Source of the DNA: a virus
Direction: 5' to 3' (one strand)
Length of the DNA stretch: 64,000 bases
IMG/VR virus record: IMGVR_UViG_3300042482_000702
Span: 199,355 to 263,354 of that record
In this document: positions 43,974 to 63,670 of the stretch, piece after piece
How the letters are laid out: every line of letters starts with the position of its first letter
Numbering within the stretch: position 1 is the stretch's first letter
Notes under the pieces: generated by a model
Databases searched by the model: none
What the model saw: the letters and a program-made list of their open reading frames with translations, nothing else
Told to the model about the DNA's origin: nothing
Made by a program: the position numbers and the translations under genes

Positions 43974-44168
43974 ATGTTAATAGTTAAATTAGATAAAAAC
44001 ACTACGATTGAGCGAGCTTTAAAACTTTATAAAAGTAAGGTAATAAAAACTCGACAAAGTTCTGAACTTGTTAAAAGAAAAGAATTTGTTAAAGAGTCTG
44101 TTATTAAAAGAGCTGAACTTTCTAAGGCAAAGTATGTCCAAAAGAAATTTAAGTCAAATAACGATTAA
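43974..44168 (+). CDS. rpsU: Ribosomal protein bS21 homologue
   Basis: 64 residues from the ATG at 43974 (MLIVKLDKNTTIERALKLYK). Alternative starts at 43965 (ATG) and 43947 (TTG) add only non-conserved residues. The R-A-L-K-x-Y-K core, L-V-K-R-K-E-F and the basic C-terminus (IKRAELSKAKYVQKKFK) match bacterial bS21, which sits near the anti-Shine-Dalgarno on the 30S. Tyr54 falls where the Bacteroidota protein has a conserved aromatic residue. It is the only plus-strand gene in this block, and its stop overlaps the convergent gene by 3-4 bases. Inserted copy; likely to replace or compete with host bS21. Confidence 0.85.
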   Translation: MLIVKLDKNTTIERALKLYKSKVIKTRQSSELVKRKEFVKESVIKRAELSKAKYVQKKFKSNND

Positions 44169-44884
44169 AGAGTTTCGTTTAAACTTTTAAGTTTAAAATA
44201 AGTTAGTTTGTCGTATTTCTCAGATATTACCTTGGATAAGGTATCATTGATTCTGCTATTAACTGAACTATCATCGGAGGTAGATTTCATTTTAGTTAAT
44301 TTACTAACAACACTTTCTTTAATCACATTAAAATCTTCGTTAAGAGTACTATCATCTTCAGATAGTAATTTAAACAATTCGTCTTTATCTGATTCGTTTA
44401 AAGATTCAATGTAATTACTAATTGTTTGATTTGCAATACTAACCATCGCTTTTAAAGGTATGTTAACACTTTCAGTTTTAGTGATAGGTAATTTTCTTAA
44501 AGTTTCTGAAATAATTTTTTTACTTTTAATTCTTGATTCGATTGTTAGAACATCTCTTGAAAATAATTTATCAATATTATCGTATGAGTCATTTGATTTA
44601 GAATCTTTAACCCATTCGTTTAATTTTTTAATTTCTGATGTAGATATTTTGTTTACAGTGTTTTCATATATAGTGATACATTCGTTAATGTAATCACTCA
44701 CATATGATTCCGACAATGCTTTCGGTGAATTTAATTCATCGTACATATAGAAAATTTTACTGATGTTTTTATTCTCTAACACCAATTTTTTAAAATTTTT
44801 TATTTCTTGTTTAAATGTTCCGTTATTATATGATTCTAATAACACATTTTCTATTTTCGATTTTAATATACCAAACTTTGTCAT
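44165..44884 (-). CDS. Hypothetical helical protein, possible prohead core component
   Basis: 239 residues from the ATG at 44882-44884 (MTKFGILKSKIENVLLES); a frame extended to 44914 overlaps the portal gene end. Almost wholly helical, Ser/Lys/Glu-rich, with LYELNSPKALSES-like and SLNESDKDELFKLLSEDDSTLNE segments in part. The position directly after the portal corresponds to T4 genes 67/68. An S-E-S junction (KALSES) could be a protease site. Function is inferred from order only. Confidence 0.5.
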   Translation of the reverse strand: MTKFGILKSKIENVLLESYNNGTFKQEIKNFKKLVLENKNISKIFYMYDELNSPKALSESYVSDYINECITIYENTVNKISTSEIKKLNEWVKDSKSNDSYDNIDKLFSRDVLTIESRIKSKKIISETLRKLPITKTESVNIPLKAMVSIANQTISNYIESLNESDKDELFKLLSEDDSTLNEDFNVIKESVVSKLTKMKSTSDDSSVNSRINDTLSKVISEKYDKLTYFKLKSLNETL

Positions 44885-44899
44885 TTTTCTTTTTTTATT

Positions 44900-44906
44900 A
44901 TAAATA
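44900..44906 (-). promoter_or_regulatory. Candidate late promoter motif TATTTAT
   Basis: Minus-strand GATATTTATAATAAAAAAAG, 15 bases before the 44884 ATG. It also supports that start. Confidence 0.45.
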
Positions 44907-46772
44907 TCAATCATTTAGAAGTTTATTCAATTCAGTCTCAATATCTCCTAAAGAATTTCTAGATTTAGATAAATCAATATAAGAATCGTCATCGGTCATA
45001 TTACCACTTTCCAATAAAATATTCCAATTTTCTTTTCTTTTAAATGATTCTGGTGTTAGTTCACCTTCACCACCTGCTTCTGGTGCTGGTGGGAGTTCTT
45101 CACCTCCTAATGCAGGTTCTCCACCCAATTCTGATTCACCTCCAAAATCACCTCCACCAAAACTTCCTCCACCGCCCGGTGGTGGTGGTGCTGGAACTTC
45201 AGCTGATTGTGTTGTTCCTGATTTACTACCATATAACTTATCAATATTATCAAATATACCTGTGTGAGAAATTATTGTTGCTGTGTTAGTTAATTCAGCC
45301 CCAACAGCTTTTTCTATTCTTTGTTGTTGTAAATCTAATTTAATTTCATCATCAGAGAATCCTAATACGTGTTTTTTAGCCCAAGTAACAGATACAGGTG
45401 CAATACCTTCTATCGCCGTTACGGCATCTTTATACAATAATATTTTTTCTTTCCAAACATCAATTTTTAATAAATCTGCTTGGGTTGATGGATTAGTTAA
45501 ACTTAATCTAAAGTTGGATAATTCATCTTCAAACCCTAATAAAAATAAATGAACAATTGCTATTTTATTTAATTCGGCAATCATACATTTTTGTATTCTA
45601 TTGATAGTTCTTGCAAAACGAATATCTTGTAATGATAAGTTTTTACCATCTCCAACAGTTTCTTCAAATCCTAAAAATGCTTTAGGAACTCTAAGAGCTG
45701 TTAGTAATTTCTTTTGGATATATTCTATATCGGCAATTTCCGCCAAATTCTGTGCTCCTGGTAATGTTTCTATTGGAGATGTCGCTGCTGGGTCACGAAC
45801 AGGTATAAAATAATCTTGGTCAACAGCCATTTGATTAAATCTCATATCCACATTTCCAGTTTTAGAATCAACAACTTGGTCTCTTTTAAATTTATTAGCA
45901 ACTCTTTGTACGTATGGTTCAACATCTTTATCATCCATATTACCAACAAACACTTTAAAAACTCTTCTTTCAGGTGCTCGCGATGTTCTATAAATTAACA
46001 TTGCATCTTCAGATAATAATAATTGCTTCCAAATACGACGAGCCTTTTCTAACATAGAAGTACCATAAGGAAGTTTTCTATCATCACCTAATAATCTAAA
46101 ATGAGCGACTTCCCAAGAGTTAAACTCCATATCTTTAGCTTTCCACTTAAATCGTAATCCTTTGTTTTCTGCAGGTTCATCAACATTTGCCGATTTTGCT
46201 GCCATACCTCTTTCTAATCTCTCAATTTCTATGTTTGGTAATTGCATACAACCAACAATTCCTTTTTCGGCGTCAAGTTTTAAATACACAAAATTATCAC
46301 CATATTTACAAGTATTTCTTGTCCACATTGGTAAATTGGTGTTAAGGTCTAAAACATTATTAAATAAATCTGAAATAATTCCTTTTATCCTTTTTGACTC
46401 TGAATAAATTTGTAACATATGACCATTTTGGTCAACTGTGGTAGATTCTTCACCATAGATATCTAAAGCTGCCGAAATTTCCGGTGTATATTCCATACTC
46501 TCATAATCATAAAATGATGCTAAACGAGTTGGTTCATAATAAACCGCTTGAGTGTATAAATTACTTTCAATTTTTGTCCACTGATTGGCTAGATAATATG
46601 TTTGTTGTGCCTGAAGTTTTTCTCGTTCATATTCGGCTTGGGAAGTAGTTTTTAATAATTCTTTTTTATCTAACTTATATGTTGGATAATCTTGATTTAA
46701 AAGAGCATTTGGACCAAAAGCTCTGGATAATCTTTGCCAAACAGTTAAGTCGTTATTTTGATTGTTTTCCAT
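44907..46772 (-). CDS. Portal protein, T4 gp20-like
   Basis: 621 residues. Characteristic T4-type portal segments: YDYESMEYTPEISAALDIYGEEST, PMWTRNTCKYGDNFVYLKL, RTSRAPERRVFKVFVGNMDDKDVEPYVQ (in pieces) and LLTALRVPKAFLGFEETVGDG. They are followed by a helical region and a Gly/Pro/Glu-rich C-terminal tail (PPPGGGGSFGGGDFGGESEL). It forms the dodecameric ring for DNA entry and nucleates prohead assembly. The tail is unusually long and low-complexity. Located between two fibre-like genes and the head genes. Confidence 0.9.
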   Translation of the reverse strand: MENNQNNDLTVWQRLSRAFGPNALLNQDYPTYKLDKKELLKTTSQAEYEREKLQAQQTYYLANQWTKIESNLYTQAVYYEPTRLASFYDYESMEYTPEISAALDIYGEESTTVDQNGHMLQIYSESKRIKGIISDLFNNVLDLNTNLPMWTRNTCKYGDNFVYLKLDAEKGIVGCMQLPNIEIERLERGMAAKSANVDEPAENKGLRFKWKAKDMEFNSWEVAHFRLLGDDRKLPYGTSMLEKARRIWKQLLLSEDAMLIYRTSRAPERRVFKVFVGNMDDKDVEPYVQRVANKFKRDQVVDSKTGNVDMRFNQMAVDQDYFIPVRDPAATSPIETLPGAQNLAEIADIEYIQKKLLTALRVPKAFLGFEETVGDGKNLSLQDIRFARTINRIQKCMIAELNKIAIVHLFLLGFEDELSNFRLSLTNPSTQADLLKIDVWKEKILLYKDAVTAIEGIAPVSVTWAKKHVLGFSDDEIKLDLQQQRIEKAVGAELTNTATIISHTGIFDNIDKLYGSKSGTTQSAEVPAPPPPGGGGSFGGGDFGGESELGGEPALGGEELPPAPEAGGEGELTPESFKRKENWNILLESGNMTDDDSYIDLSKSRNSLGDIETELNKLLND

Positions 46773-46801
46773 CTTAATAATTTAAATATTTTTTTTTATT
46801 A

Positions 46802-46808
46802 ATAAATA
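46802..46808 (-). promoter_or_regulatory. Candidate late promoter motif TATTTAT for the portal gene
   Basis: Minus-strand AACTATTTATTAATAAAA, 29 bases before the portal ATG. The 115 bases between this gene and the 46888 stop hold no gene and no clear terminator. Confidence 0.4.
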
Positions 46809-46887
46809 GTTTATAAGTTGGATTAAACTTGGTGGTTATTATTGTTATCTACCATATTAAAATAATTATAGTTAATCATATATATTA

Positions 46888-48954
46888 TTAATAAGTTTTA
46901 TTTAGTATAAAGATATCACTATAGATGTTGTTTCCTGTAGATGCAGCACCCCATTCAGCTGTAACATTTAATGTATTACTGATTGTTGTATCGAATGTTG
47001 TGTTATTCAATACGTTAAATCCGAATCCTTGGACAGAAGCATTGTTAGTTTTTGTGTAATGGAAACTACCTAAAGAAACAATTGATGCTACAGTAGTAGT
47101 TCCAACTTGTCTAATTGTAAAATCAACATTTAAAGACCACACATCGTCTACAACACTGCTTCCAAGAGATTGTACACCACTATCTAAAAGAATTGTAGAC
47201 CCTGTTCTCATTCTAATTATAATAGTTTGATTATTGTTTGCATTCATAACACCACCAAAAACTGCTCTAAAACTATCTCCAACACTAAAACCATTAGCAG
47301 GTACACTTAATGTACCAACTCCTGTACCAATTAAAGTTGATTCAGTTATTGTATCGCTCACAATAGTACTGTTAGCTGTTTGTACATATAGTCCATATAC
47401 TAATGGTGCTGGAAAAACTGGTGAAGTACCACTAGAACCTGAAGAACCACTCGTTCCCGAAGAACCGCTAGTTCCTGATGAACCATCAATCCCCGCAATT
47501 GCCGGTGATAATGTTGTTGTTACTTGTCCGATACTTGCATCGTTAAAGTACATTGTAAGTACTTTAGTGTAAGGTGAATTAATAGCTATACCATATAATT
47601 CTATAAGAATTCTATCTGACGGTACAATATTAGATGCCGGAATAGGTATTGACCATAGTTTTAAAGTAGGGACAAGGTAATTATCTATCGGGACAGGAAT
47701 AGGTGTAGTTGTAGATAACAATGTAGTTGTTCCACCAGTATGATACGCATATACTCTTGCATATATTCCGTGGTCAGCGTTTACTGCCGTAGTATTAACG
47801 TATAATTCAAAATTCCAATTTCCACCCACAATATTACTAATATTGGGGTCATTATTAGGTGTTATAAATGTCCCAAATAATTGTGCTGTTGTTCCTGATA
47901 ATGTTTGAGATAAAGATGTTTGTCCGCTAATACTAATTACCCGGTTTAAATCATAATATGATGCACTTCCATCACCTTGGTTAGGTGTATCTCTATTGAA
48001 GTAATAAACTAACCCTGTTGAAAATCCGTTAATACCGCTTGTTCCTGATGAACCGCTTGGTCCCATAGAACCTGAATTCCCATTTACCCCACTCGTTCCC
48101 GATGAACCACTTGTTCCGCTTGAACCATTGGCCCCTGATGTTCCCGATGAACCACTTGTTCCGCTTGAACCATTTCCACCTGCAGCACCTCCTAAATTAA
48201 CGAGCCAAGATGAATAATTCCCCGAACCTACTATATTACTAATATCAACAACCATATCACCATTTGACGGGTTATAACTAACAACCATACCAATCATATG
48301 GTTTGAGAGGTCATAGGCTATAATTACGTCTTGAGCAATACTATACCCTAAGTTAGTCCCAACAACAAAAGTCCCTGTACTTCCTGTTTGGATTGTTAAA
48401 GGTGTCGAAGATGTTGTTCTATATAAATCACCTGAAAAACCACTAGAACCTGATGAACCACTTGTTCCTGATGAACCTGATGTTCCACTTGAGCCGCTAG
48501 TCCCTGAAGTACCGTTAGTACCAACACATATTCCATTATCTATAATGGTTGCGCCACCATCCGCAAATATCTCACCTGACATATAACAATCTGTATATGT
48601 CATTCCAGCACTTACCGTACCAATTTGAATGATGTAATTACAAGTTGTTCCTGTATAATTTATGGTGGTAATACCACCACTATTATCAATCGTATAACTT
48701 TTACAAGTTTGACCATTTATTCCCGATGTTCCACTAGTTCCCGATGTTCCACTAGTTCCTGATTCACCACTAGTTCCTGATTCACCACTTGTTCCCGATG
48801 AACCGCTAGCTCCCGAAAATTGTTGAGTTAAGGCTGAAAAATAAATTGAATTGGTTTCTCCTGACGGGATAACATCGTAGTTTACAATAACCATCAACGA
48901 GTCTGATTGACCGGATGATACTAATGGTAATTGTGATATAGGTAAATTAGGCAT
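46888..48954 (-). CDS. Collagen-like tail fibre or decoration protein
   Basis: 688 residues. The N-terminal anchor (MPNLPISQLPLVSSGQSDSL) is like that of the protein starting at 12067. Four Gly-Thr-Ser-Gly / Gly-Ser-Ser-Gly stretches (plus-strand 48725-48825, 48440-48520, 48040-48180, 47428-47510) alternate with beta-rich domains. One of these (YYFNRDTPNQGDGSASYYDL) resembles the second folded domain of the giant fibre. The C-terminal 140 residues form a Thr-rich beta domain (TTFDTTISNTLNVTAEWGA). Collagen-like repeats suggest a trimer. It lies between terminase and portal, where T4 carries sheath and tube genes. Confidence 0.7.
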   Translation of the reverse strand: MPNLPISQLPLVSSGQSDSLMVIVNYDVIPSGETNSIYFSALTQQFSGASGSSGTSGESGTSGESGTSGTSGTSGTSGINGQTCKSYTIDNSGGITTINYTGTTCNYIIQIGTVSAGMTYTDCYMSGEIFADGGATIIDNGICVGTNGTSGTSGSSGTSGSSGTSGSSGSSGFSGDLYRTTSSTPLTIQTGSTGTFVVGTNLGYSIAQDVIIAYDLSNHMIGMVVSYNPSNGDMVVDISNIVGSGNYSSWLVNLGGAAGGNGSSGTSGSSGTSGANGSSGTSGSSGTSGVNGNSGSMGPSGSSGTSGINGFSTGLVYYFNRDTPNQGDGSASYYDLNRVISISGQTSLSQTLSGTTAQLFGTFITPNNDPNISNIVGGNWNFELYVNTTAVNADHGIYARVYAYHTGGTTTLLSTTTPIPVPIDNYLVPTLKLWSIPIPASNIVPSDRILIELYGIAINSPYTKVLTMYFNDASIGQVTTTLSPAIAGIDGSSGTSGSSGTSGSSGSSGTSPVFPAPLVYGLYVQTANSTIVSDTITESTLIGTGVGTLSVPANGFSVGDSFRAVFGGVMNANNNQTIIIRMRTGSTILLDSGVQSLGSSVVDDVWSLNVDFTIRQVGTTTVASIVSLGSFHYTKTNNASVQGFGFNVLNNTTFDTTISNTLNVTAEWGAASTGNNIYSDIFILNKTY

Positions 48955-48956
48955 AG

Positions 48957-49631
48957 TTAATTGATTAGAATTTTATTATTATTTTCTTGGTCTAATGTAA
49001 AATAATTCTCTTGTAATAAATAGTTTGTATCTTCAATTTGTGTGGGTGTGGGTGTGGGTGTTGGTGTTGGTGTTGGTGTTTCAGTATTTGTCGGAGTAGG
49101 AGTATTAGTTGGTGTTTGGGTGTTTGTCGGAGTAGGAGTATTAGTTGGTGTTTGAGTGTTTGTTGGTGTTTGAGTAGGCGTATTAGTTGGTGTTGGCGTA
49201 TTAGTAGGCGTTGGTGGTGGTGGTAAATAACTTAAAACACAAGTCTTATTTAATTCAGTGATACATATAACATATTGACCATAATAATATTCTGTATAAT
49301 ATACATAGGGTAATACTACAGAACCTAAATCTATTGTACCTCCTGTTAGAGGGTTATAGGTTATATTTCCGCAATATCCGCTGTAATTATTTGTCGATAT
49401 TGTAAATTTAGGTGTAGGAATTAATTCAAAACTACCAGTAAAATCACAATCAATTATAAATGCCGGTGTTGGTGTTACCGGAATTTTACGGTAAGAATCA
49501 TTATCTTGTTTACTACTTAATTTATTAAAACCTGGTGGGATAACCTGAACATTAAAGATATTTTGTCCATCAACAACTAGTCGTGAACCCCCAATAATAT
49601 TCCCTGATTTTTTTCTATTAACAAATCCCAT
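48957..49631 (-). CDS. Pro-Thr-rich virion protein, 224 residues
   Basis: A small head (MGFVNRKKSGNIIGGSRLVV) and a beta-rich middle are followed by about 65 residues of T-P-T-N-T-P-T-Q type repeats (plus-strand 49039-49215). A short C-terminal tail follows (YLLQENYFTLDQENN). The Pro-Thr stalk resembles those of the proteins at 10459 and 12206. No motif known. It starts 20 bases after terminase; an extended spacer or glycan acceptor is possible. Confidence 0.55.
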   Translation of the reverse strand: MGFVNRKKSGNIIGGSRLVVDGQNIFNVQVIPPGFNKLSSKQDNDSYRKIPVTPTPAFIIDCDFTGSFELIPTPKFTISTNNYSGYCGNITYNPLTGGTIDLGSVVLPYVYYTEYYYGQYVICITELNKTCVLSYLPPPPTPTNTPTPTNTPTQTPTNTQTPTNTPTPTNTQTPTNTPTPTNTETPTPTPTPTPTPTQIEDTNYLLQENYFTLDQENNNKILIN

Positions 49632-49644
49632 CTTCTTTTAATTA

Positions 49645-49651
49645 ATAAATA
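49645..49651 (-). promoter_or_regulatory. Candidate late promoter motif TATTTAT
   Basis: Minus-strand GATAATATTTATTAATTAAA, 13 bases before the 49631 ATG, touching the terminase stop. Confidence 0.4.
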
Positions 49652-51421
49652 TTATCTTCCACCAAATAACCAACCATATTTCATATAATCGTCTTTAGAA
49701 ACTTGACTGGAACTAAATTGGTTTATTCTTTCGGTTAAATTTGGCATAACCGGATTAAAAGAAATGGATTGTCCTATGTTCTGATTATTACTAACCGACC
49801 AAGAATCAATCATCGCTTTGGTATGTTCTGTTACTTTGGTTAAATTACTAAATGATGATTCAGCCACATATGTTGCCATAGCAATTGACATAATTAAATC
49901 ATCGTGGTGTCCTTTCTGGTGGTCAGGTCTACCATTCATATAGATAAAAGTATTCATTTCCCCACATAAACGAGTACTATAAATTTTAAATCCGTGTCTT
50001 AATACTTCTTCAAAAGACGCAATAATTTGAACCCTTTTATTATTAAAATTTATTCCTGGTATTTTATCTAAAGCTTTTGGGTCGTATTTCCATTTATTTG
50101 ATGAGTCAACCCCATCAATATATAAATTTCTATATCCCATCTCTTGCATTTTTCTCGCTGTTGATACGCCCATTCCTCCGGTAATATCAATAACAACAAA
50201 ACACGAATACATTGTCGCCCATTTATAGGCGATTTCTGCCATAACATCGGGTGGTATTTTCCCCACATATTCGGCAACTTGTTCATTAGTGTCAAAATCT
50301 ACAATTTGGAATGAACTAAAATCTTCACTATCACCCCTAGATACATCACAACCCATAATATATTTATGACCGATAACTGGTTCTTTCCAAATCCAAAGGG
50401 CGTTACCCATCATTTTACTAATAGGGTCTTTAACCATATTTTCATGGATTCCTTGCATCATTTTAGAATCAAATACATTATCACCTGACCCAAGGAAATT
50501 ACATTCTAACTCCTGAGATACTTTACGTTTGTCGTATTTTAATTTTTTAACCATCGCTTCAAACCAAGAAGAACAAGGTTTGTATCCATCATCCATTAAA
50601 ACTCTTAATTCTTTATAGTCTCTTTCATATGGTGATATGTTAGCCCAACTAATGGTTTCTTTTTCATCATAATCTTCTTTATTTAAAAGGTAATGAATAA
50701 TATCCTCAGTTTTAACCATATATAAATCTTTAGTATAACGAGGGTCACGATACCAATACATTTCGGTAATCTTGAAGTCGTTCATACCTCTTAAAGCTTG
50801 GTCATAAATTTCATAGTAAATTGGGTCATATCCATTGGGTGTAGAAACCACAATTACTTTACCCCCCGTAGATAGGGATGCCATACAGGCAGACCAGAAG
50901 TCATTGTCGGCTTCAATAAACGCCGCCTCATCAAATATTAATATTGTAGGTGTAAATCCACGAAGTGCATCCTTTGATGTTGCAACGGCTTTTACTTCAC
51001 TACCATTAAGTAATTTATAATGTTTTTGAGCGTTTTTATCAGGGGAAAATCCAATACCAACCCAGTCAGGCCATTGAGCAACAAATGCTCTAATCTTGTT
51101 CGCCATTTCAATAGATGTATCAAGTTTGTTGGCAATAATTAAGACTTTCTCGGGTTTTGTTTTTTTGGCAAACGATAATTTCATTGACGCCCAAGCTGCG
51201 GTAACGGTTGTTACACCCGCTTGTCTGTATTTTAACGCAATGTTTTCGTTGTTGTTTTCGTAATCCTCAAGTAAGGTTATTTGGTCGGGGAATAATTCTA
51301 ATGGGACATATTTTGATACAGTATTGTCATAAGTTTGTAGATACGTCTTTAACGCGTAACTTACATCCTTATGACATTTTACATATTCTATTAATACTTG
51401 CTCTCTTGTTAAATTTGACAT
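49652..51421 (-). CDS. Terminase large subunit, T4 gp17-like
   Basis: 589 residues. The ATPase half has ENIALKYRQAGVTTVTAAWA (a deviant Walker A without Lys in the usual place; the Lys precedes it), TILIFDEAAFIE (Walker B with the D-E pair) and VVSTPNGYDPIYYE (motif III). The nuclease half has GCDVSRGDSEDFSSFQIVDF (RNase H-like D), VVIDITGGMGVS and GHHDDLIMSIAMA (final acidic motif). It packages DNA into proheads and cuts concatemers. It lies upstream of the portal in the T4 order, with two fibre-like genes between. Confidence 0.93.
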   Translation of the reverse strand: MSNLTREQVLIEYVKCHKDVSYALKTYLQTYDNTVSKYVPLELFPDQITLLEDYENNNENIALKYRQAGVTTVTAAWASMKLSFAKKTKPEKVLIIANKLDTSIEMANKIRAFVAQWPDWVGIGFSPDKNAQKHYKLLNGSEVKAVATSKDALRGFTPTILIFDEAAFIEADNDFWSACMASLSTGGKVIVVSTPNGYDPIYYEIYDQALRGMNDFKITEMYWYRDPRYTKDLYMVKTEDIIHYLLNKEDYDEKETISWANISPYERDYKELRVLMDDGYKPCSSWFEAMVKKLKYDKRKVSQELECNFLGSGDNVFDSKMMQGIHENMVKDPISKMMGNALWIWKEPVIGHKYIMGCDVSRGDSEDFSSFQIVDFDTNEQVAEYVGKIPPDVMAEIAYKWATMYSCFVVIDITGGMGVSTARKMQEMGYRNLYIDGVDSSNKWKYDPKALDKIPGINFNNKRVQIIASFEEVLRHGFKIYSTRLCGEMNTFIYMNGRPDHQKGHHDDLIMSIAMATYVAESSFSNLTKVTEHTKAMIDSWSVSNNQNIGQSISFNPVMPNLTERINQFSSSQVSKDDYMKYGWLFGGR

Positions 51422-51440
51422 ACATTGTCGTTTTGTTTGT

Positions 51441-55705: not shown

Positions 55706-55738
55706 TTTTTTATTTTTGTTTTTTAAATTAATTTATAT

Positions 55739-55745
55739 ATAAATA
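55739..55745 (-). promoter_or_regulatory. Candidate late promoter motif TATTTAT
   Basis: Minus-strand GAATATATTTATATATAAAT, 33 bases before the 55705 ATG, heading the packaging operon. Confidence 0.4.
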
Positions 55746-55781
55746 TATTCAGAATTAAAAATGTTGAGATTTTAATTCTTT

Positions 55782-56528
55782 TTATTGTATTTCATTTAAG
55801 GATAATGATTTATCAATGTACTCATTTTGAAAATCAAACAATTTTTCTAGGTATCCATTTCTTCTTAATACCTTGAAAACTAAATTTTCATTTGATAGTT
55901 CCCCACCTTTTTCTAACCCTGAAGTTCTATACTTTTTTAACTTATCTTTATACCTATCTATTAATTTTTTCGCATCGTCCAATGATTCATCTTTAGCGTT
56001 TTCAATAACATCATCAATGGTTTTCATCCATTCTTCTGATTTTATTTTAACTGATTGGGTATCAATTTCTACATTTTCTTTTTTTGGTTCGCTAACCCAT
56101 TCATCAAATAAAACAGAATATTCACCACTACTAAAATGTTTTTCTACATCATCCTGAACATACAATTCAACATCATATCCATATATGGTTATATTATGTT
56201 TGTCATTATATAAAGTTTTTTTTAATCTAAACAATTCTTCATACAATGGTAATTCTTTTTCCGAAAATTGTTTAAAATCCACAATTATATGTAAATCAAC
56301 ATCAGAATATTTTGACCAATTAAAATTTGCCAACGAACCGGTCATAACCACATCGGAGACAATTACATCAACACCCAAAAAATCAATGAACTCATAAGCA
56401 ATTTCTAAAAGACGTTCCCTTACTTTGGGAGCCATCGTTTCTACTTCATCTTCTTGTGAGTTCCAAAATTTAGGATTTAGTTCGTCTTGTAATCTAAAAC
56501 TGGATAATATACTTTTTAAATTGCTCAT
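55782..56528 (-). CDS. Nucleotidyltransferase-fold protein
   Basis: 248 residues. VVMTGSLANFNWSKYSDVDLHIIVDF is the NTP-transferase signature (G-S, then D-x-D with S-D-V-D-L), and YGYDVELYVQDD supplies the third acidic position. The rest is helical (EWMKTIDDVIENAKDESL). It could transfer NMP or another group to a small molecule, RNA or protein. Similar small nucleotidyltransferases are known in phages without clear roles. It also resembles antitoxin/MNT-type folds, but there is no HEPN partner beside it. Confidence 0.65.
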   Translation of the reverse strand: MSNLKSILSSFRLQDELNPKFWNSQEDEVETMAPKVRERLLEIAYEFIDFLGVDVIVSDVVMTGSLANFNWSKYSDVDLHIIVDFKQFSEKELPLYEELFRLKKTLYNDKHNITIYGYDVELYVQDDVEKHFSSGEYSVLFDEWVSEPKKENVEIDTQSVKIKSEEWMKTIDDVIENAKDESLDDAKKLIDRYKDKLKKYRTSGLEKGGELSNENLVFKVLRRNGYLEKLFDFQNEYIDKSLSLNEIQ

Positions 56529-56533
56529 TAACT

Positions 56534-56540
56534 ATAAATA
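56534..56540 (-). promoter_or_regulatory. Candidate late promoter motif TATTTAT
   Basis: Minus-strand AAGTATTTATAGTT, 5 bases before the 56528 ATG. A further, more distal TATAAATA lies at 56547-56554. Confidence 0.35.
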
Positions 56541-56558
56541 CTTAAATATTTATAATTG

Positions 56559-56801
56559 TTACAATTTTTTGTATTTGAATACCTTTGAAATATCTGTGGT
56601 AAAAAACTTACCTTGTGATTCCGCCATTCTGAATTTTGTATATACATTATGAGGAACTGCCTCATACTCGTATTTCATACCATTTTTAAACTCAGCGATT
56701 AATTTTTTAGTTTCGGTATCGTATTCAGTTTTTACGATATTTGTTGACTCAATTTCATTAATAATTTTAGTCCCGTCTATTGTTTCTTTTTTTATTGCCA
56801 T
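56559..56801 (-). CDS. KTSC-domain protein
   Basis: 80 residues. The sequence IESTNIVKTEYDTETKKLIAEFKNGMKYEYEAVPHNVYTKFRMAESQGKFF (read in segments) matches the KTSC fold: S-x-x-I-x-x-x-x-Y, L-x-x-x-F-x-N-G-x-x-Y-x-Y, V-P, and A-x-S-x-G-x-F-F. KTSC proteins occur beside lysyl-tRNA synthetase or on phages; the function is unknown. It overlaps the upstream gene by 35 bases. Confidence 0.75.
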   Translation of the reverse strand: MAIKKETIDGTKIINEIESTNIVKTEYDTETKKLIAEFKNGMKYEYEAVPHNVYTKFRMAESQGKFFTTDISKVFKYKKL

Positions 56802-57099
56802 TTTTTAAAGGTGTTTCTAAATCAATTATTTGTAATTTATCCATAAGATAAGCGTTAAACTCATTATTATCAACATCACCAAAAAAACTTCTTAATTCTG
56901 AATAAACATTATTCTTTAATGTTGAGAATTTTTGAAAGTTTCTCATAATATCATTTGGGTAATATGGGGGTTTTTTAATATCCTCGTCAGACCAACCTTC
57001 CCGTTGGAATGACAATCTAAGATTCCTATAAGTTTCTGTTAGTTCATTATCAATACCTAAAGTATCGATATATTTCATCCAAGCATTTTTATAATCCAT
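56767..57099 (-). CDS. Hypothetical protein, 110 residues
   Basis: Not recognised. It starts with the ATG at 57097-57099 (MDYKNAWMKYIDTLGIDNEL); a longer frame would run into the clpC promoter and is rejected. Helical, with SFQREGWSDEDIKKPPYYPNDIM in the middle and a basic C-terminus (LKNGNKKRNNRRD). It overlaps the KTSC gene. The TATTTAT motif lies 4 bases before the start. Confidence 0.55.
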   Translation of the reverse strand: MDYKNAWMKYIDTLGIDNELTETYRNLRLSFQREGWSDEDIKKPPYYPNDIMRNFQKFSTLKNNVYSELRSFFGDVDNNEFNAYLMDKLQIIDLETPLKNGNKKRNNRRD

Positions 57100-57103
57100 T
57101 TTT

Positions 57104-57110
57104 ATAAATA
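57104..57110 (-). promoter_or_regulatory. Candidate late promoter motif TATTTAT
   Basis: Minus-strand AATATATTTATAAAAATGG, 4 bases before the 57099 ATG. A host-type promoter for clpC lies back-to-back on the plus strand. Confidence 0.35.
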
Positions 57111-57124
57111 TATTAAAAAAATGT

Positions 57125-57155
57125 TTTGGTAATCTAAAAATATGTATTACTTTTG
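57125..57155 (+). promoter_or_regulatory. Host-type promoter for the Clp gene
   Basis: TTTG (57125-57128), 19 bases, TACTTTTG (57148-57155): an exact fit to the Bacteroidota TTTG-N19-TAnnTTTG consensus. The ATG follows 56 bases downstream, leaving a leader of about 50 bases. Confidence 0.75.
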
Positions 57156-57211
57156 TCCAATCATTTGAAATAATGAAATTAACCCCTATACTTAAATAAA
57201 ACAAATTAATT

Positions 57212-59263
57212 ATGATAGAATCTATGGATGGTAACGAAGGAAGAGGTAAGAACACAAGTGTTTCCGAATCAGCAACACCAGTGTTAGACAATTTTAGTCG
57301 AGATTTAATAAAATTGGCTGAAGAAGGGAAATTAGACCCTGTTATTGGTAGAGAAAGTGAAATAACGAGAATTGCTCAAATTCTTTCTCGTAGAAAGAAA
57401 AATAACCCAATTATTATTGGAGAACCTGGTTGTGGTAAAACCGCCATTGTTGAGGGTCTCGCAATTAAAATCTATAATGGGGATTGTCCAAGAAATTTAA
57501 TGGATAAAAGAATCGTATCATTAGATATGACATCAATCGTTGCCGGAACAAAGTATCGTGGTCAATTTGAAGAACGAATGAAAGTAATTATAGAAGAATT
57601 ACAAAACGCACCAAACATCATCGTATTCATTGATGAGATTCATACCATTGTTGGAGCGGGAAATTCATCAGGTTCAATGGACGCATCAAACATCTTTAAA
57701 CCAGCTCTTGCTCGTGGAGAAATCCAATGTGTTGGAGCAACAACATTAGATGAATATAGAAAAAACTTTGAGAAAGATGGAGCGTTAGAAAGACGATTCC
57801 AAAAAGTTGTTGTTGATTCACCAACCAAAGGGGAAACATTACTTATCTTGGAACAATCAAAGGAAAAATATGAATCTTACCACAAGGTAACTTATTCCAA
57901 CGAGATTTTAAATCTATGTGTGGATTTAGCAGAAAGATATATCACCGATAGAGAATTTCCGGACAAGGCGTTTGACATCTTGGATGAGGTTGGGGCGAGA
58001 AGTCAGGTTGAAATTAAAATGCCGGATTCAATTGAAAAATTGAAATTACAAGCGTCCGATATTAAACAACAAAAAATGGATGTTGTTAAACGACAAGATT
58101 ACGAAGAAGCGGCAAATTTACGAGATAAAGAAAAGAGAGTTTTAACCAAACTTGAAACTGAAAAGAAAAAGTTTGAAGAGGAACTCTTAACTAATAAAAA
58201 AGAGATTACTGTTGATTTGGTTTATGAGGTTGTATCCAATATTACCAAAATTCCAATCACCAAATTAAACTCTGATGAGACTAAATTATTATCCGAAATG
58301 GAAAATAATTTATCCGATAAGGTTATTGGACAATCTGATGCAGTTTCAAAAATTGCCAAGTCAATTAGAAGAAGTAGAATCGGGATTAAAGACCCAAACA
58401 AACCAATTGGTTCATTTATCTTTTTAGGTTCAACTGGTGTTGGTAAAACATATCTAGCAAAACAACTCGCCAAACAAATGTTCGGTAGTGAGGATAATAT
58501 GATTCGTGTGGATATGTCGGAATACCAAGAAAAACATACCATATCAAGATTAATCGGAGCTCCTAGCGGATATGTTGGGTATGAAGATGGGGGACAACTA
58601 ACCGAACAGGTTAAAAATAAACCATATTCTGTTATTCTATTTGATGAGGTTGAGAAAGCTCATAAAGATATTTTCTCCACACTTCTTCAAGTATTGGATG
58701 AAGGACACTTAACCGATAGTTTAGGTAAGAAAATCAATTTCAAAAATTGTGTGATTATTATGACCTCAAATGTTGGTGCCAAAAAATTACAAGATTTTGG
58801 TTCAGGTGTTGGTTTTAAAACGGGGGGAAGTGCTTATGTTGAGGAGGAATATCGTAGAGATGTTTTGAAAAAGGAATTAAAGAAATTCTTTACTCCGGAA
58901 TTCTTAAATCGTGTGGACGAAATTGTAATCTTTAATTCTTTAGTGAAAGAAGATGTTAAAAAAATTGTGAAATTAGAATTGGATATTCTAACTAAACGAT
59001 TAACCGGAATGAAATATAACATCACTTTTGATGGTAGTGTTTTAGATTTAATATCTGATGTTGGATTTGATGAGACATACGGAGCAAGACCGATTAAAAG
59101 AGCTATCCAAGATAAACTTGAGGATTTTGTATCTGAAGAGATTATAAAAGGAAATGTTGTAGAAAACACTCCATACACAATCACCTCTGTTGATAAGGAA
59201 ATTAAATTTCAAGAGGTTGTTGAAGTTGTGAAAAAGACAAGAAAGAAAAAGGGGGATTTATAA
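57212..59263 (+). CDS. clpC: ClpC/ClpA-like AAA+ unfoldase without N-domain
   Basis: 683 residues. There are two AAA+ modules: Walker A GEPGCGKT (70-77) with B IVFIDEIH, and Walker A GSTGVGKT (about 406) with [13 protein letters not shown] short UVR-like segment ([15 protein letters not shown], about 294) replaces the long ClpB middle domain, so it is ClpC/ClpA-like and not a ClpB disaggregase. SGVGFKTG near residue 531 matches the VGF ClpP-docking loop. The usual 140-residue N-terminal adaptor domain is missing. It likely unfolds substrates and may feed host ClpP. Host-type promoter upstream, terminator downstream. Confidence 0.85.
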
Positions 59264-59288
59264 TCCCCTCTTTAAATACCAAAAAAAT

Positions 59289-59314
59289 AACCCCACCTTT
59301 CGGAGGGGTTTTTT
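59289..59314 (+). terminator. Terminator after the Clp gene
   Basis: AACCCCACC and GGAGGGGTT pair around a TTTC loop, followed by a run of T. A near-perfect symmetrical hairpin; it could act on both strands. Confidence 0.85.
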
Positions 59315-59316
59315 AT

Positions 59317-59820
59317 TTAATTTTTGTCATTTGAATTATTCTCACCATATTTATCTATAATTTGTTCAACACGATGATAAGACTTTCTTCCCATATTAAA
59401 TTTGATTGTTTTGTTACTCCCATCGTTAATTCTGTAAGATAAATCAACATTACCATCACTGTCAATTGTTATATTAACAGGTAATTTAATATTATCACGA
59501 TGTTTAAAAATGTGAGACCTATTTCCATCAATATGTAAATCAATACTGTTATCAATTTTTTCATACGATAATTTATAATCATTGGGATTAGTTTCAAATT
59601 CTCTGAACATTTTTTTGAACACCGTTTTATCATCAAGTTTTAATCCAGACATTAATATGGATTCAAGTATTTGACGACCAAACAATTTCATAAATATATG
59701 TACACCTAATGTCATTAATAAAAATTCCCCAAAATTTTCATTTATGGTTTTTTTTCCTGTGTGCATCTCAAGGATTCTACTTTTTTCTTCTTGAGAAATA
59801 TTATTAAATAAATTTTTCAT
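59317..59820 (-). CDS. Hypothetical protein, 167 residues
   Basis: Not recognised. The N-terminus NISQEEKSRILEMHTGKK is a short helical signature that I believe recurs in uncharacterised proteins of this phage type. A hydrophobic helix follows (FLLMTLGVHIFMKLFGRQILESIL), possibly membrane-associating. The C-terminal half is a beta sandwich-like region (IDLHIDGNRSHIFKHRDNIKLPVNITIDS). A TATTTAT motif lies 13 bases upstream. Confidence 0.5.
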   Translation of the reverse strand: MKNLFNNISQEEKSRILEMHTGKKTINENFGEFLLMTLGVHIFMKLFGRQILESILMSGLKLDDKTVFKKMFREFETNPNDYKLSYEKIDNSIDLHIDGNRSHIFKHRDNIKLPVNITIDSDGNVDLSYRINDGSNKTIKFNMGRKSYHRVEQIIDKYGENNSNDKN

Positions 59821-59833
59821 ATTAATTTTTATT

Positions 59834-59840
59834 ATAAATA
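59834..59840 (-). promoter_or_regulatory. Candidate late promoter motif TATTTAT
   Basis: Minus-strand AATATATTTATAATAAAAAT, 13 bases before the 59820 ATG, just downstream of the peptidase terminator. Confidence 0.4.
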
Positions 59841-59850
59841 TATTACAAAA

Positions 59851-59871
59851 AAAAAGAGACCGAAGTCTCTT
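59851..59871 (-). terminator. Strong terminator at the end of the peptidase gene
   Basis: On the minus strand AAGAGAC-TTCG-GTCTCTT is followed by a run of T. A UUCG tetraloop hairpin whose 5' arm includes the peptidase stop codon region. Confidence 0.9.
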
Positions 59872-60691
59872 AAAATTTATAAAAATATTTTGAATCCGTT
59901 TTGTATAAATATTTTTTATACCCCAAATCCTGAATCATCTTTTTACCGGTCTCTATTCCATTATAAACATCCTCAACAACCACATACTCATTTCTTGTGT
60001 GATAGTCGTAATAACCTATCGCAAAATTGATACAGGAGAAGTCAAATAAGTTCTTCAGAGCATAAACATCAGTATATGGGTTTGAAAAGTATTCTTGTTC
60101 ACCCTTAAAGTTTTCTGTTAAGACATTATCACATGTCTTAAAAAAATCACTCTCTCGGTCAAACAATTGTGTTCCCATACAAAATTCTGTAACCATTCTG
60201 TTTCCCGGAGCATCAAATTGAATTCCGTATCCTACATTTATAAAAAAATTGGGGTCAGCCTTTTTGGACCCGTGACATCCGGTTTCTTCAGATACAAAGA
60301 AAGCCGCCTTTAGATTTGGCAATTCTTTTAATAATTCCAAACAAGCATAAACACCACATTTATCATCACCACCAATACCGGTTGGATTTCCAAAATCGTT
60401 ATAAGCCTTTAACGCTGGTTTGAGTTCATATTGATTGTTCTGTAACATTTCCTCACGAATATTTATCGTGTCTATGTTATGAACCGTATCTGTATGAGCA
60501 ATTACACAGGGAAAATAATCGATAAATTCGTCTGTTTGTTTTATAGCGTAGATATTTTTATGTTCATCCACATTGAAGGGAATCCCATTTTCCTCTAACC
60601 AGTTGATTAGAAAATCTACCATTCTGTCCTCTTGATATGTTTTTGTCGGAACCGACAATACATCTTTTAATAATTGATAATTTCTTTCCAT
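59870..60691 (-). CDS. M20-family-like zinc peptidase
   Basis: 273 residues. Metal-ligand segments in family order: VIAHTDTVHNID (H-T-D), GIGGDDKCGVYACLELL (G-D-D), AFFVSEETGCHGSKKAD (E-E), FDAPGNR (D), and YYDYHTRNEYVVVED (final H). This resembles PepT/M20 di-zinc aminopeptidases, shortened and without a clear dimerisation domain. It could trim peptides or act on a tagged product. The -7 box TATATTTG lies 4 bases before the ATG, suggesting a leaderless host-type transcript. Confidence 0.8.
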   Translation of the reverse strand: MERNYQLLKDVLSVPTKTYQEDRMVDFLINWLEENGIPFNVDEHKNIYAIKQTDEFIDYFPCVIAHTDTVHNIDTINIREEMLQNNQYELKPALKAYNDFGNPTGIGGDDKCGVYACLELLKELPNLKAAFFVSEETGCHGSKKADPNFFINVGYGIQFDAPGNRMVTEFCMGTQLFDRESDFFKTCDNVLTENFKGEQEYFSNPYTDVYALKNLFDFSCINFAIGYYDYHTRNEYVVVEDVYNGIETGKKMIQDLGYKKYLYKTDSKYFYKF

Positions 60692-60695
60692 AGCA

Positions 60696-60703
60696 CAAAT
60701 ATA
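60696..60703 (-). promoter_or_regulatory. Host-type -7 box, 4 bases before the peptidase ATG
   Basis: CAAATATA on the plus strand, i.e. TATATTTG toward the gene. The spacing to ATG is the same as at smpB. No TTTG is present at the expected -33 position, so it is a partial match. Confidence 0.5.
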
Positions 60704-60732
60704 AGGAAAATAATTAACATAAAAACATTATT

Positions 60733-62100
60733 TTAATTTATTCTAACAAAACCCTCAAATAATTCAGGTGAAACTAAAAAGTTATTAAATTCTTCTTCGG
60801 TATAACTTCTACGAGCAACACCATTTTTAGTGAAAACATCCATATGTATTCTATTTGTTGCCGGGTCAATTTCTCTAATAAAAAATTCTCTACCATACGA
60901 AGTCTTACTTCTAGTGTTAGTCGGGTATTTAGATATAACTCTATCGTAGATATCTGAGTATTCTAAAATATCAACATACTTATCGGATTGTTCTAATTCC
61001 TCAAGTATTTCATCTAATTCTTCCCCTATAACAAGATTAAGTCGCTCATCATCAAAATCGTTACATTGTATTTCATATCTATATTCATCCCACCCACCAG
61101 TGTTAAATGTGTGTCCAATATCTGTTAAAACACCCTTAATGTCTTTAGTGGGGTCTTGACTAATCTTAAACATTGATAATAAAAGACCAACAGTGGTATA
61201 ATAAGTTCTAAAACAATCTATATTGATTAACCCATAATTTTGAAAAATTTCACAAATTTCATCGTTAATTTGTTTTTTAGCCTCATCGTGACGACAATTA
61301 TTTTCAAGGTCTACATACTCTTCTAACATACTTTCAATTTTACCCGCAAACATATCCGACAATTTTTCAGCAGCCTTTTCTTTCTTTTCATCATCGTCTA
61401 AAGAAATTAAATCAGGTGAAATATATTTTAAAATTTGTTTTAATTTACCCTTATTTTCATCTGAAAACCAACCGAAAAAATACCCCCCATTCCAATCATC
61501 AACCGCTGTTTCATAATCAATATAATCATATCCATTATCATAATACGAAAATAAACTACTAACATAATAAACATCATCTTCTTCAACCTCAAATAATTTA
61601 ACATAATCTTCTATATCATCAAAATGTAATTTGATTGTACTTTTACCCGGATTTTTTTCGTTGTAATTAAATTTATAAATTAAATTGTCAGCACGTTCCA
61701 TTTCATTAGATGATACCTGTTCACCATTCTTAATCTTAACTAACAAGTCATAAATTGGACTATAACCAATTATGGGTTCAAGTTCTGATTTAACATCATT
61801 AGGTAATTCGTGGAATAATTCATTTCTAGTTATGACTCTATTTCTCATAACCTCACTACCAATATATTCTATCTTATGGTCGGTATCATTTCTAAAAATA
61901 GTGTATGTCTGAATCGGTTCTTTATCCTTATCAATAACAAAATAAACATCACCATCCCTAAATTTATTAGTCCATTCTGGTTTAAGTTTTTCCGGTGCAA
62001 AATATTCAAACGCCAAACCTGTCATTGGCTCAACTATCATCCAATCTTCAGTGTTTAATATAGTTTGACTTTGCTCGTAAGCGTCGTTTTTAGTGGGCAT
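60733..62100 (-). CDS. Large acidic hypothetical protein
   Basis: 455 residues, not recognised. Starts MPTKNDAYEQSQTIL. An N-terminal part resembles a small beta domain (DWMIVEPMTGLAFEYFAPEKL; YTIFRNDTDHKIEYIGSEVM). The rest is helical and very acidic (KLFEVEEDDVYYVSSLFSYY; LNLVIGEELDEILEELEQSDKY). No catalytic motif. The C-terminus (FIREIDPATNRIHMDVFTKNGVARR) looks beta-rich. It lies divergently next to the tmRNA, with a TATTTAT motif 17 bases upstream. Confidence 0.55.
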   Translation of the reverse strand: MPTKNDAYEQSQTILNTEDWMIVEPMTGLAFEYFAPEKLKPEWTNKFRDGDVYFVIDKDKEPIQTYTIFRNDTDHKIEYIGSEVMRNRVITRNELFHELPNDVKSELEPIIGYSPIYDLLVKIKNGEQVSSNEMERADNLIYKFNYNEKNPGKSTIKLHFDDIEDYVKLFEVEEDDVYYVSSLFSYYDNGYDYIDYETAVDDWNGGYFFGWFSDENKGKLKQILKYISPDLISLDDDEKKEKAAEKLSDMFAGKIESMLEEYVDLENNCRHDEAKKQINDEICEIFQNYGLINIDCFRTYYTTVGLLLSMFKISQDPTKDIKGVLTDIGHTFNTGGWDEYRYEIQCNDFDDERLNLVIGEELDEILEELEQSDKYVDILEYSDIYDRVISKYPTNTRSKTSYGREFFIREIDPATNRIHMDVFTKNGVARRSYTEEEFNNFLVSPELFEGFVRIN

Positions 62101-62117
62101 AGATATTTATTTTAATA

Positions 62118-62124
62118 ATAAATA
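62118..62124 (-). promoter_or_regulatory. Candidate late promoter motif TATTTAT
   Basis: Minus-strand AATATATTTATTATTAAA, 17 bases before the 62100 ATG, back-to-back with the host-type promoter of the tmRNA. Confidence 0.4.
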
Positions 62125-62132
62125 TATTTTTA

Positions 62133-62163
62133 TTTGGAATTATCTAAAAATGTATTATCTTTG
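62133..62163 (+). promoter_or_regulatory. Host-type promoter of the tmRNA
   Basis: TTTG (62133-62136), 19 bases, TATCTTTG (62156-62163). Exact Bacteroidota consensus; transcription would start a few bases downstream, close to the 5' end of the mature tmRNA at 62178. Confidence 0.85.
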
Positions 62164-62177
62164 TAGAGTTAAAATAT

Positions 62178-62586
62178 GGGAGTGACACGGAATTGACTAT
62201 TCGTAATAGTTATTCGGGGCACGTAGTGAGATGTTCTCTATCACTTAAATCTATGGGTACAACAATTTAGACGGAAACGTTTTAAACAAAATGGCTCTAG
62301 TAGGTCTTGTACGTCAAGATGAGCTTGTGAACGTAGCGTAAGCAAACACACATTGGGGTCGACGGATATGTGTACCTAGCAACAGAAATATCTTAAGGTG
62401 TGATACCACCCGAAGAGTGTCAAGGTCTCGTTTGAGGGTCTACCTATTAAAGTGAACCTCCCACAGTTGTAGGTAATGATGGAAAAATTAGAACCTTCTA
62501 TTTGTCAGTTGAGAATTAACTGAATAAACGTGTAGTCCTTAATAGGTAATACAAATAACACTTGGGTTCGAGTCCCAACACTTCCA
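62178..62586 (+). ncRNA. ssrA: Transfer-messenger RNA (tmRNA)
   Basis: The ends form a tRNA-like domain: 5' GGGAGTG pairs over 7 bp with 3' CACTTCC (62579-62585), discriminator A at 62586, and a perfect T-arm (TTGGG, loop TTCGAGT, CCCAA at 62562-62578). After the acceptor the 5' part reads ACACGGAATTGAC, close to the tmRNA GGATTCGAC hallmark. A message-like frame after UUAGAC (62267-62272) begins GGA AAC GTT TTA at 62273 and ends QDELVNVA, with TAA at 62339-62341. That is a tag of about 22 residues with an unusual C-terminus. CCA is not encoded. The region between should hold pseudoknots. SmpB is encoded nearby. Confidence 0.85.
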
Positions 62587-62587
62587 C
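62570..62587 (+). repeat. tmRNA 3'-end sequence, copy 1
   Basis: GAGTCCCAACACTTCCAC, the 3' half of the T-arm and acceptor. Copy 2 at 62598-62615 differs by one base. Confidence 0.85.
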
Positions 62588-62597
62588 GTCCACTGGA

Positions 62598-62615
62598 GAG
62601 TCCCAACACCTCCAC
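62598..62615 (+). repeat. tmRNA 3'-end sequence, copy 2 (remnant)
   Basis: GAGTCCCAACACCTCCAC, beyond the gene end. It lacks the 5' T-arm half, so it is not part of a second tRNA-like domain. It resembles the duplication left by recombination at tRNA-like 3' ends. Confidence 0.8.
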
Positions 62616-62620
62616 ACAAA

Positions 62621-62647
62621 AAAGAGACCTAAATGGTCTCTTTTTTT
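62621..62647 (+). terminator. Terminator of the tmRNA transcript
   Basis: AAAGAGACC (62621-62629) and GGTCTCTTT (62635-62643) around TAAAT, then T to 62647. Confidence 0.9.
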
Positions 62648-62662
62648 ATTGATAATCACCAA

Positions 62663-62684
62663 TAAAAAAACCACCCGAAGGTGG
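62663..62684 (-). terminator. Terminator of the 63077 gene
   Basis: On the minus strand CCACC-TTCG-GGTGG followed by seven T. It lies 28 bases after the stop at 62712. Confidence 0.85.
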
Positions 62685-62711
62685 CTTATTATCAGTTCAA
62701 ATGTTTATTTT

Positions 62712-63077
62712 TTAATCTTTTAATACTTGTTTATCCCCAACCGGAGATGTGAATTTGGATGTTAATTTATCTAATCTTGAATCAAAATTTCTATATACAT
62801 CACTAAACATTTTATCTACGTCATCCATTCTTTTGTTGGTGTACATATTTGTTTCAGTATATAATCTATCAACCCTATCAATCTCCCCATCAATACGACG
62901 GTTTAGAGAATCTCCACCACTATTAATATCATTAAAGATATGTCCTTGAACTTGTTCTAATTGTTTGCATTTATTTTTTAATCTGTTAATCTGAATGCAC
63001 ATTATAACCATAACCACAACTCCCAGTACCCCGAGAACCAAACCTATACCCATAATGAACGATGTTAAATCTACCAT
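62712..63077 (-). CDS. Membrane-anchored coiled-coil protein
   Basis: 121 residues. One N-terminal transmembrane helix (about 6-28, FIMGIGLVLGVLGVVVMVIMC) followed by a charged coiled-coil (INRLKNKCKQLEQVQGHIF; RRIDGEIDRVDRLYTETNMY; RMDDVDKMFSDVYRNFDSRL). No lipobox. It could be a spanin-like, superinfection or membrane-anchoring protein; no partner identifies it. Confidence 0.6.
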   Translation of the reverse strand: MVDLTSFIMGIGLVLGVLGVVVMVIMCIQINRLKNKCKQLEQVQGHIFNDINSGGDSLNRRIDGEIDRVDRLYTETNMYTNKRMDDVDKMFSDVYRNFDSRLDKLTSKFTSPVGDKQVLKD

Positions 63078-63125
63078 AATTTCTGTTTTTTTATTTGTTT
63101 ATTATTGAACTGATAATTAATTATA

Positions 63126-63156
63126 ATAAAAAAAGGGACTATTTCAAGTCCCTTTT
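63126..63156 (-). terminator. Terminator overlapping the smpB stop
   Basis: AAAAGGGACT (63131-63140) and AGTCCCTTTT (63147-63156) form a 10-bp stem with a 6-base loop and a T-run in minus orientation. The SmpB coding end forms one arm. Confidence 0.9.
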
Positions 63157-63576
63157 CATATCTCTTTCGATGTCCCGAGATTTGATGGTATCTCGTTTAT
63201 CGTATGTTTTCTTCCCTTTGGCAAGAGCAATTTCCATTTTAATTAATCCGGTGTCGTTTATGAAGATACGATAAGGAACGATGGTTACACCATTGATTAA
63301 CTCATTCTCCCACTTATTAAGTTCTTTTCGTTTGGCTAATAGTTTTCTATCCTTTACGGTCTCGTGGAAGGACCCAAACCCATAATCGGAGATATTCATC
63401 CCCTTTATAAATAACTCCCCCTCATTGAAATAACAATACCCTTCAGAGATGGATACCTTTCCCTGACGAATGGACTTTACCTCTGAACCAACTAGTTTGA
63501 TTCCCACAATTAATGTCTGTAGGAATGAATACTCAAACTTGGCTTTCTTATTGACTATGTTAATTGAATTTTTCAT
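63139..63576 (-). CDS. smpB: SsrA-binding protein SmpB
   Basis: 145 residues, a normal length for the family. Core signatures: INIVNKKAKFEYSFLQTLIVGIKL (in part), GSEVKSIRQGKVSISEGYC (the G-T/S-E-V-K-S-x-R), DYGFGSFHE, RDRKLLAKRKELNKW-like and LIKMEIALAKGKKTYDKRD. The C-terminal tail is basic (RDIERDMKRDLK), as needed for decoding-centre entry. It binds tmRNA and delivers it to stalled ribosomes. Its -7 promoter box lies only 4 bases from the ATG, so the message is probably leaderless. Confidence 0.95.
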   Translation of the reverse strand: MKNSINIVNKKAKFEYSFLQTLIVGIKLVGSEVKSIRQGKVSISEGYCYFNEGELFIKGMNISDYGFGSFHETVKDRKLLAKRKELNKWENELINGVTIVPYRIFINDTGLIKMEIALAKGKKTYDKRDTIKSRDIERDMKRDLK

Positions 63577-63580
63577 ACGA

Positions 63581-63644: not shown

Positions 63645-63670
63645 GGCTTAATACGATGAGAATACTCGTC

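Follow-up and report, generated by a model that had tools for sequence, protein, structure and literature searches.

The DNA considered here, a window of 64,000 nucleotides, corresponds to positions 199355-263354 of the IMG/VR virus record IMGVR_UViG_3300042482_000702, which totals 322,477 bases. Toward its right end lie genes implicated in ribosome rescue and protein degradation, including those for a transfer-messenger RNA (tmRNA), the protein SmpB, a ClpC-like unfoldase and an M20-like peptidase. These four, together with the ribosomal protein bS21, had been reported in an original prediction made from the DNA letters, and profile searches recovered all five where it had placed them. Three features go beyond that prediction: an unusual tag encoded by the tmRNA, a phage-encoded ClpP and a neighboring GOLLD RNA. 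The features that bear on rescue and proteolysis are as follows.

57125-57155, plus strand: promoter-like site ahead of clpC, a Bacteroidota-type match to TTTG-N-TAnnTTTG with positional support only
57212-59263, plus strand: clpC, with two AAA modules (Pfam), an M-domain-type linker and a VGF loop
59870-60691, minus strand: M20/PepT-like peptidase (PHROG 4191 'peptidase', 2.4e-37)
60733-62100, minus strand: fast-evolving protein of 455 amino acids between the peptidase gene and the tmRNA
62133-62163, plus strand: tmRNA promoter, -33 TTTG and -7 TATCTTTG, its -7 box conserved in aligned relatives
62178-62586, plus strand: tmRNA (Rfam RF00023, 62.3 bits against a gathering score of 47), with acceptor stem GGGAGTG/CACTTCC, a G3:U70 pair, discriminator A and acceptor-stem covariation in relatives
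62273-62341, plus strand: tag reading frame, GNVLNKMALVGLVRQDELVNVA followed by a stop, 22 amino acids, the frame conserved in relatives
63139-63576, minus strand: smpB (PF01668, 159 bits against a cut-off of 27; NCBIfam SmpB equivalogs above cut-off)
63581-63611, minus strand: smpB promoter, a match to TTTG-N17-23-TAnnTTTG
63612-63646, minus strand: terminator-like hairpin with a T-run between GOLLD and smpB, read from the sequence
63653 to about 64059, minus strand: 3' domain of GOLLD RNA (Rfam RF02032), crossing the right edge of the window
G000:C1:12657-13178, outside the window: phage clpP, with a Ser-His-Asp triad

Several observations identify the tmRNA. Its score lies above the RF00023 gathering score, its acceptor is tRNA-Ala-like with the G3:U70 pair, and its tag frame stands at the resume site. 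Among relatives, the third acceptor pair is G:U in all seven stem types extracted, whereas other changes in the stem occur pairwise, and compensatory changes are present at 16 of the 28 predicted tmRNA pairs. The MAFFT alignment shifts the acceptor of one sub-group by one base, and acceptor pairing was also taken from directly extracted stems. The resume codon mostly falls at gene position 93-97, which is about the same as in host tmRNAs, and ARAGORN reads the equivalent frame of the relative L094 at position 95, again as in host tmRNAs. For one relative the program independently read the tag as GNVLDKMETLGLVRESEVTVA. ARAGORN does not detect the tmRNA in the window or in most relatives, whereas the Rfam model does, and a nucleotide search with the phage tmRNA against 50,697 phage records returned zero matches. 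Since programs tuned to short tags overlook such tmRNAs, the extent of phage trans-translation is probably underestimated.

Forms of tmRNA with a tag of two amino acids, or with none, are already known. A phage precedent of the second kind, the tag-less DS6A form, which is reported to act as a decoy blocking host trans-translation, is cited in PMC11915505, and it raises the question of whether the tmRNA described here might do likewise. This seems very improbable, since relatives preserve the acceptor as well as the tag frame with its stop, and the phage also supplies SmpB.

The encoded peptide is not the typical short tag ending in -AA. Across the clade, 24 nucleotide forms of the tag encode 14 peptides, each 21-22 residues long and ending in VA or TA, which follow the pattern G[NDE][VIT][LI]xK[ML]xxxGL[VIL]R..... 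The search pattern that yielded these 14 peptides demanded a GCN codon before the stop, and wider searches without this demand gave the same endings. For comparison, all 28 tags that ARAGORN read from bacterial Bacteroidota are 8-9 residues long and end in LAA or MAA. An unrelated tmRNA in the GOLLD-bearing contig G089 (L322:1501-1864), adjoined by several tRNAs, encodes the 31-residue tag GNIYNSEDMMSIPTFITRVAQEAKPEVLEVA, which ends in EVA. Directly after the window tmRNA, at 62590-62616, its 3' end is partially repeated as GAGTCCCAACACCTCCA; this second copy also occurs in the relatives L003 and L018 and is possibly a recombination or attachment-site remnant.

Such a tag might be read in several ways. 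One explanation is that it serves as an ordinary degron for host ClpXP or FtsH, that its length and ending reflect neutral drift, and that the phage genes simply boost host capacity. Variants of ssrA ending in -LVA are indeed degraded in Gram-negative bacteria (PMC11003136), and for this reason an initial proposal that the VA end stabilizes tagged proteins was downgraded. Canonical ends are also found on the tags of other huge phages, as read from their sequences, with Lak tags ending in MAA and the long tag of a 636-kilobase (kb) phage ending in AVAA. However, every one of the 14 clade peptides avoids the -AA end that is present on 28 of 28 bacterial tags, and the tag residues look conserved at the protein level. 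On balance, we consider drift of a host degron to be unlikely.

The best match of the clpC product in the PDB is to residues 145-812 of ClpC (6em8, E 3e-224). The phage protein starts at about ClpC residue 145, and no N-terminal Clp_N domain is present among the matches listed. It retains two AAA modules, a ClpC-type middle domain and a predicted ClpP-docking VGF loop, as well as the pore-loop motif GTKYRG and the second-ring motif GYVG. Its sequence thus places it as a 'ClpC-like, N-domain-less' unfoldase, and a VGF or IGF loop is present in 28 of 28 distinct N-domain-less ClpC sequences compared. Because the adaptor-binding N-domain is missing, an unfoldase of this type that still docks ClpP would have to bind its substrates directly, for which the tmRNA-encoded tag is an obvious candidate.

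The original prediction had the unfoldase perhaps working via host ClpP, but this is not required because the phage encodes a ClpP of its own. Every copy aligned to E. coli ClpP has the full triad of Ser, His and Asp. The protein is closer to the housekeeping ClpP of Bacteroidetes, with 212 bits against the Bacteroidetes-type model PRK14514, than to phage head proteases, with only 62-68 bits in NCBIfam. Assignment as a head protease was therefore rejected, the more so because a separate head-maturation protease is encoded at 42660-43385. The phage protein is best described as a predicted divergent ClpP, scoring below the NCBIfam equivalog cut-offs.

The putative peptidase scores 23.3 bits with Pfam against a cut-off of 24.6, and its PepT-like matches also lie below cut-off; the metal and catalytic residues of the M20 family are visible by eye in the product. 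No family match in Pfam or PHROG was found for the adjacent protein of 455 amino acids.

Conservation was surveyed in 51 records, most of them fragments, comprising 50 that were picked for an smpB relative plus the present record. In this set 36 records have clpC, 35 have GOLLD and 11 have ClpP; a tmRNA match spanning the full model occurs in 35, two of which score slightly below the gathering threshold. The smpB search recovered five records of 280 kb or longer, and each carries smpB, tmRNA, clpC, ClpP and GOLLD. The original prediction had named a lack of co-occurrence in relatives as a refuting outcome, and the rescue and proteolysis genes do co-occur. They form a cassette consisting of clpC, the M20 peptidase gene, the tmRNA, in some loci smpB, and GOLLD, whose order is kept and which is retained in dozens of relatives. 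The peptidase is present in all 33 loci with ClpC and SmpB and in all 15 loci that have a long clpC match without smpB. The 455-residue protein, although divergent, is present in 33 of 33 and 14 of 15 of these loci, respectively.

This arrangement bears on a second explanation for the tag, according to which it escapes rapid degradation by host ClpXP. The gain to the phage would then be ribosome recycling only, and ClpC and ClpP would serve other ends, such as degrading host regulators or defense proteins. The absence of the canonical LAA or MAA end of host tags is in keeping with escape, as is the distance of the clpP gene from the cassette. Yet clpC, the peptidase gene and the tmRNA stay close in nearly all placeable loci, even where smpB is absent, and hydrophobic -VA ends still act as degrons in other bacteria (PMC11003136). 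Escape from proteolysis accordingly strikes us as a doubtful account of the tag.

On the strand that carries smpB, GOLLD lies 76 bases upstream of that gene. Its RF02032 score is 228 bits when truncated at the window edge and 288 bits when whole, against a gathering score of 150. The full transcript is predicted to extend to about position 64530, from a promoter-like site of its own that stands about 880 bases ahead of the 3' end, and a close equivalent of this site (TTTGAC...TTACCTTTG or TTATCTTTG) occurs in many relatives. Bounded by the promoter-like site and the terminator-like hairpin, the predicted RNA has a length that fits published full-length GOLLD, which exceeds 800 nucleotides. An equivalent hairpin occurs in relatives with a short gap between GOLLD and smpB. 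A single operon of GOLLD and smpB was rejected, since the hairpin and a separate smpB promoter lie between them. Outside the window, at L063:4046-4137, the GOLLD promoter-like site is closely preceded by a tRNA-Pro (TGG) and by a second, weak tRNA-like sequence.

GOLLD is known to occur near tRNA islands (PMC12286853), and tRNA genes flank it here. Its position beside the cassette may thus reflect only the clustering of phage RNA and tRNA genes, with no link to rescue, as is also suggested by other viral GOLLD contigs in which neither tmRNA nor smpB was detected. This possibility, which is compatible with the pathway proposed below, is a serious one to which we assign somewhat less than an even chance. 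What speaks for a closer association is that all 34 records measured have GOLLD on the smpB strand and upstream of the gene, 17 of them with 73-96 bases in between. In record G024 the pair is kept, with a gap of 74 bases, even though it lies about 190 kb from the tmRNA and clpC, which are themselves no more than 3 kb apart.

Further associations emerged from a GOLLD motif scan of viral contigs, which gave 57 stretches, and 45 records were searched further. A whole-model tmRNA match is present in 29 of these 45 records, and smpB in only one, which has no detected tmRNA. Of these 29 records, 27 have the GOLLD motif no more than 1.7 kb from the tmRNA and in convergent orientation, with an estimated gap between the RNA genes of about 0.1-1.2 kb; smpB was not detected in any of these 27 contigs. 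At the nucleotide level, GOLLD matched only LR745206 and LR756502 among 50,697 records. Both are huge phages (635 and 642 kb) in which 2-6 kb separate GOLLD from the closest clpC relatives, and a full tmRNA was not found in either. Kretsch et al. 2025 (PMC12286853) cite the recovery of GOLLD with ribosomes in pull-downs, a result that fits its neighborhood of rescue genes here without establishing a function.

The predicted parts of a complete pathway are all encoded in one phage, and all but ClpP lie in one conserved cassette beside GOLLD. We lean, by a small amount, toward the view that they constitute a self-contained phage-encoded system of trans-translation and ClpCP proteolysis. In such a system, phage tmRNA and SmpB would rescue ribosomes stalled on cut or incomplete mRNAs, whether these arise from phage mRNA turnover or from host RNase defenses, and would append the tag of 21-22 residues to the unfinished protein. 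The tag would be read mainly by phage ClpCP, which for want of the N-domain would bind its substrates directly, and the M20 peptidase would trim the resulting peptides to amino acids. Host ribosomes would thereby be kept working and amino acids recycled under phage control, with GOLLD probably part of the same ribosome-maintenance program. We infer that the tag may be private to the phage. A stronger version would have a private disposal channel in which the tag is poorly read by host proteases and well read by phage ClpCP, with GOLLD nanocages contributing directly to rescue, for example by holding stalled ribosomes, tmRNA or tRNAs. We regard this version as speculative and unlikely.

Several considerations weigh against a self-contained pathway. 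In the record, clpP and clpC are separated by about 244 kb, which leaves the pairing of their products as a presumption. Host proteases might still act on a -VA end, given the degradation of -LVA variants noted above (PMC11003136). The raw ratio of nonsynonymous to synonymous change (pN/pS) in the tag is 0.50 in frame versus 0.73 and 1.20 in the wrong frames, a modest difference in the expected direction from a test that covers 21 codons with synonymous change near saturation. Because the records are related, co-occurrence among them is not independent evidence, and G024 and its near copies represent a single rearrangement event that separates tmRNA from smpB. Finally, many contigs with GOLLD, tmRNA and clpC have no detected smpB, and in these host SmpB must suffice or the gene must lie off the contig.

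Host-type promoters had also been claimed for clpC, tmRNA and smpB. Matches to TTTG-N17-23-TAnnTTTG in the window number 8, compared with 6.8 expected by chance, and the argument from match counts alone was dropped. What supports the promoters is that relatives retain the -7 box, both in front of the tmRNA and, at the majority of loci, in front of smpB. The smpB box is only 4 bases ahead of the ATG (63576-63589), and is in about the same place in most relatives, which implies a leaderless or nearly leaderless smpB mRNA.

The bS21 gene stands apart from this system and belongs to the following neighborhood.

42660-43385: head-maturation protease, a gene separate from phage clpP
43974-44168, plus strand: bS21-like protein (PF01165, 30.5 bits against a cut-off of 27) in the virion gene module
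46888-48954: protein of 688 amino acids with many GTSGSSGTSG repeats
48957-49631: the next protein, with a long TPTPT tract

Early rewiring of host translation by a gene set including bS21 had been proposed, but this part of the original prediction is not supported. The bS21 gene, on the strand opposite to its neighbors, adjoins prohead protease, portal and terminase genes 15-29 kb from the cassette. It is present in 25 of the 51 records. Of the five records of 280 kb or longer, three have it, and the search did not find it in the other two. In phages of this kind, bS21 is reported to be transcribed late (Chen et al. 2022, PMC9723584). Its distance, patchy presence and position in the virion module led us to reject it as a member of the cassette. 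The host very probably belongs to the Bacteroidota, because the closest bacterial relatives of SmpB among the matches listed are all from this phylum and the promoters look Bacteroidota-type.

If one virus does carry the entire route that leads from a stalled ribosome to peptides, this would demonstrate that phages take over protein quality control in addition to protein synthesis. The atypical tag predicts a second, phage-specific degron in the infected cell. Likewise, the recurrent link between GOLLD and ribosome-rescue genes provides a concrete lead, namely whether GOLLD acts on stalled ribosomes.

Phages are known to carry tmRNA, SmpB, bS21, ClpP and GOLLD individually. No earlier report linking a phage ClpP or GOLLD to tmRNA was found in the literature searched, most subscription papers being outside the search; relative to that literature, the conserved cassette as a combination, the atypical tag throughout the clade and the link between GOLLD and rescue were not found and appear new. 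The freshwater Bacteroidetes jumbo phages described by Chen et al. 2022 (PMC9723584) share the gene layout of the present phage; they reach 331 kb, infect Bacteroidetes hosts, carry a reverse-strand bS21 among terminase, capsid, prohead protease and portal genes, and are noted to have a Clp protease. The main text of that study does not include tmRNA, SmpB or trans-translation, and the study is absent from the literature matches listed for GOLLD. The huge phages of Al-Shayeb et al. 2020 (PMC7162821) have tmRNA, SmpB and rpS21 among their listed genes, whereas the available part of that report contains no tag analysis, cassette or link to GOLLD; its tmRNAs were called by ARAGORN, which misses most of those found here.

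The bacterial tmRNA-SmpB-ClpXP system has the same basic components, including a tRNA-like domain with G3:U70, a tag frame, SmpB and an AAA+ protease. The phage tag, in contrast, is more than twice as long and has a -VA or -TA end, and the phage unfoldase is a predicted N-domain-less ClpC. The GOLLD RNA described as a 14-mer nanocage (Kretsch et al. 2025, PMC12286853) is resembled by the present candidate in its RF02032 match over the whole 3' domain, its predicted length of about 880 nucleotides and its nearby tRNA genes. Here, unlike in that system, GOLLD is found beside smpB, tmRNA and clpC, with its own Bacteroidota-type promoter-like site and a terminator-like hairpin.
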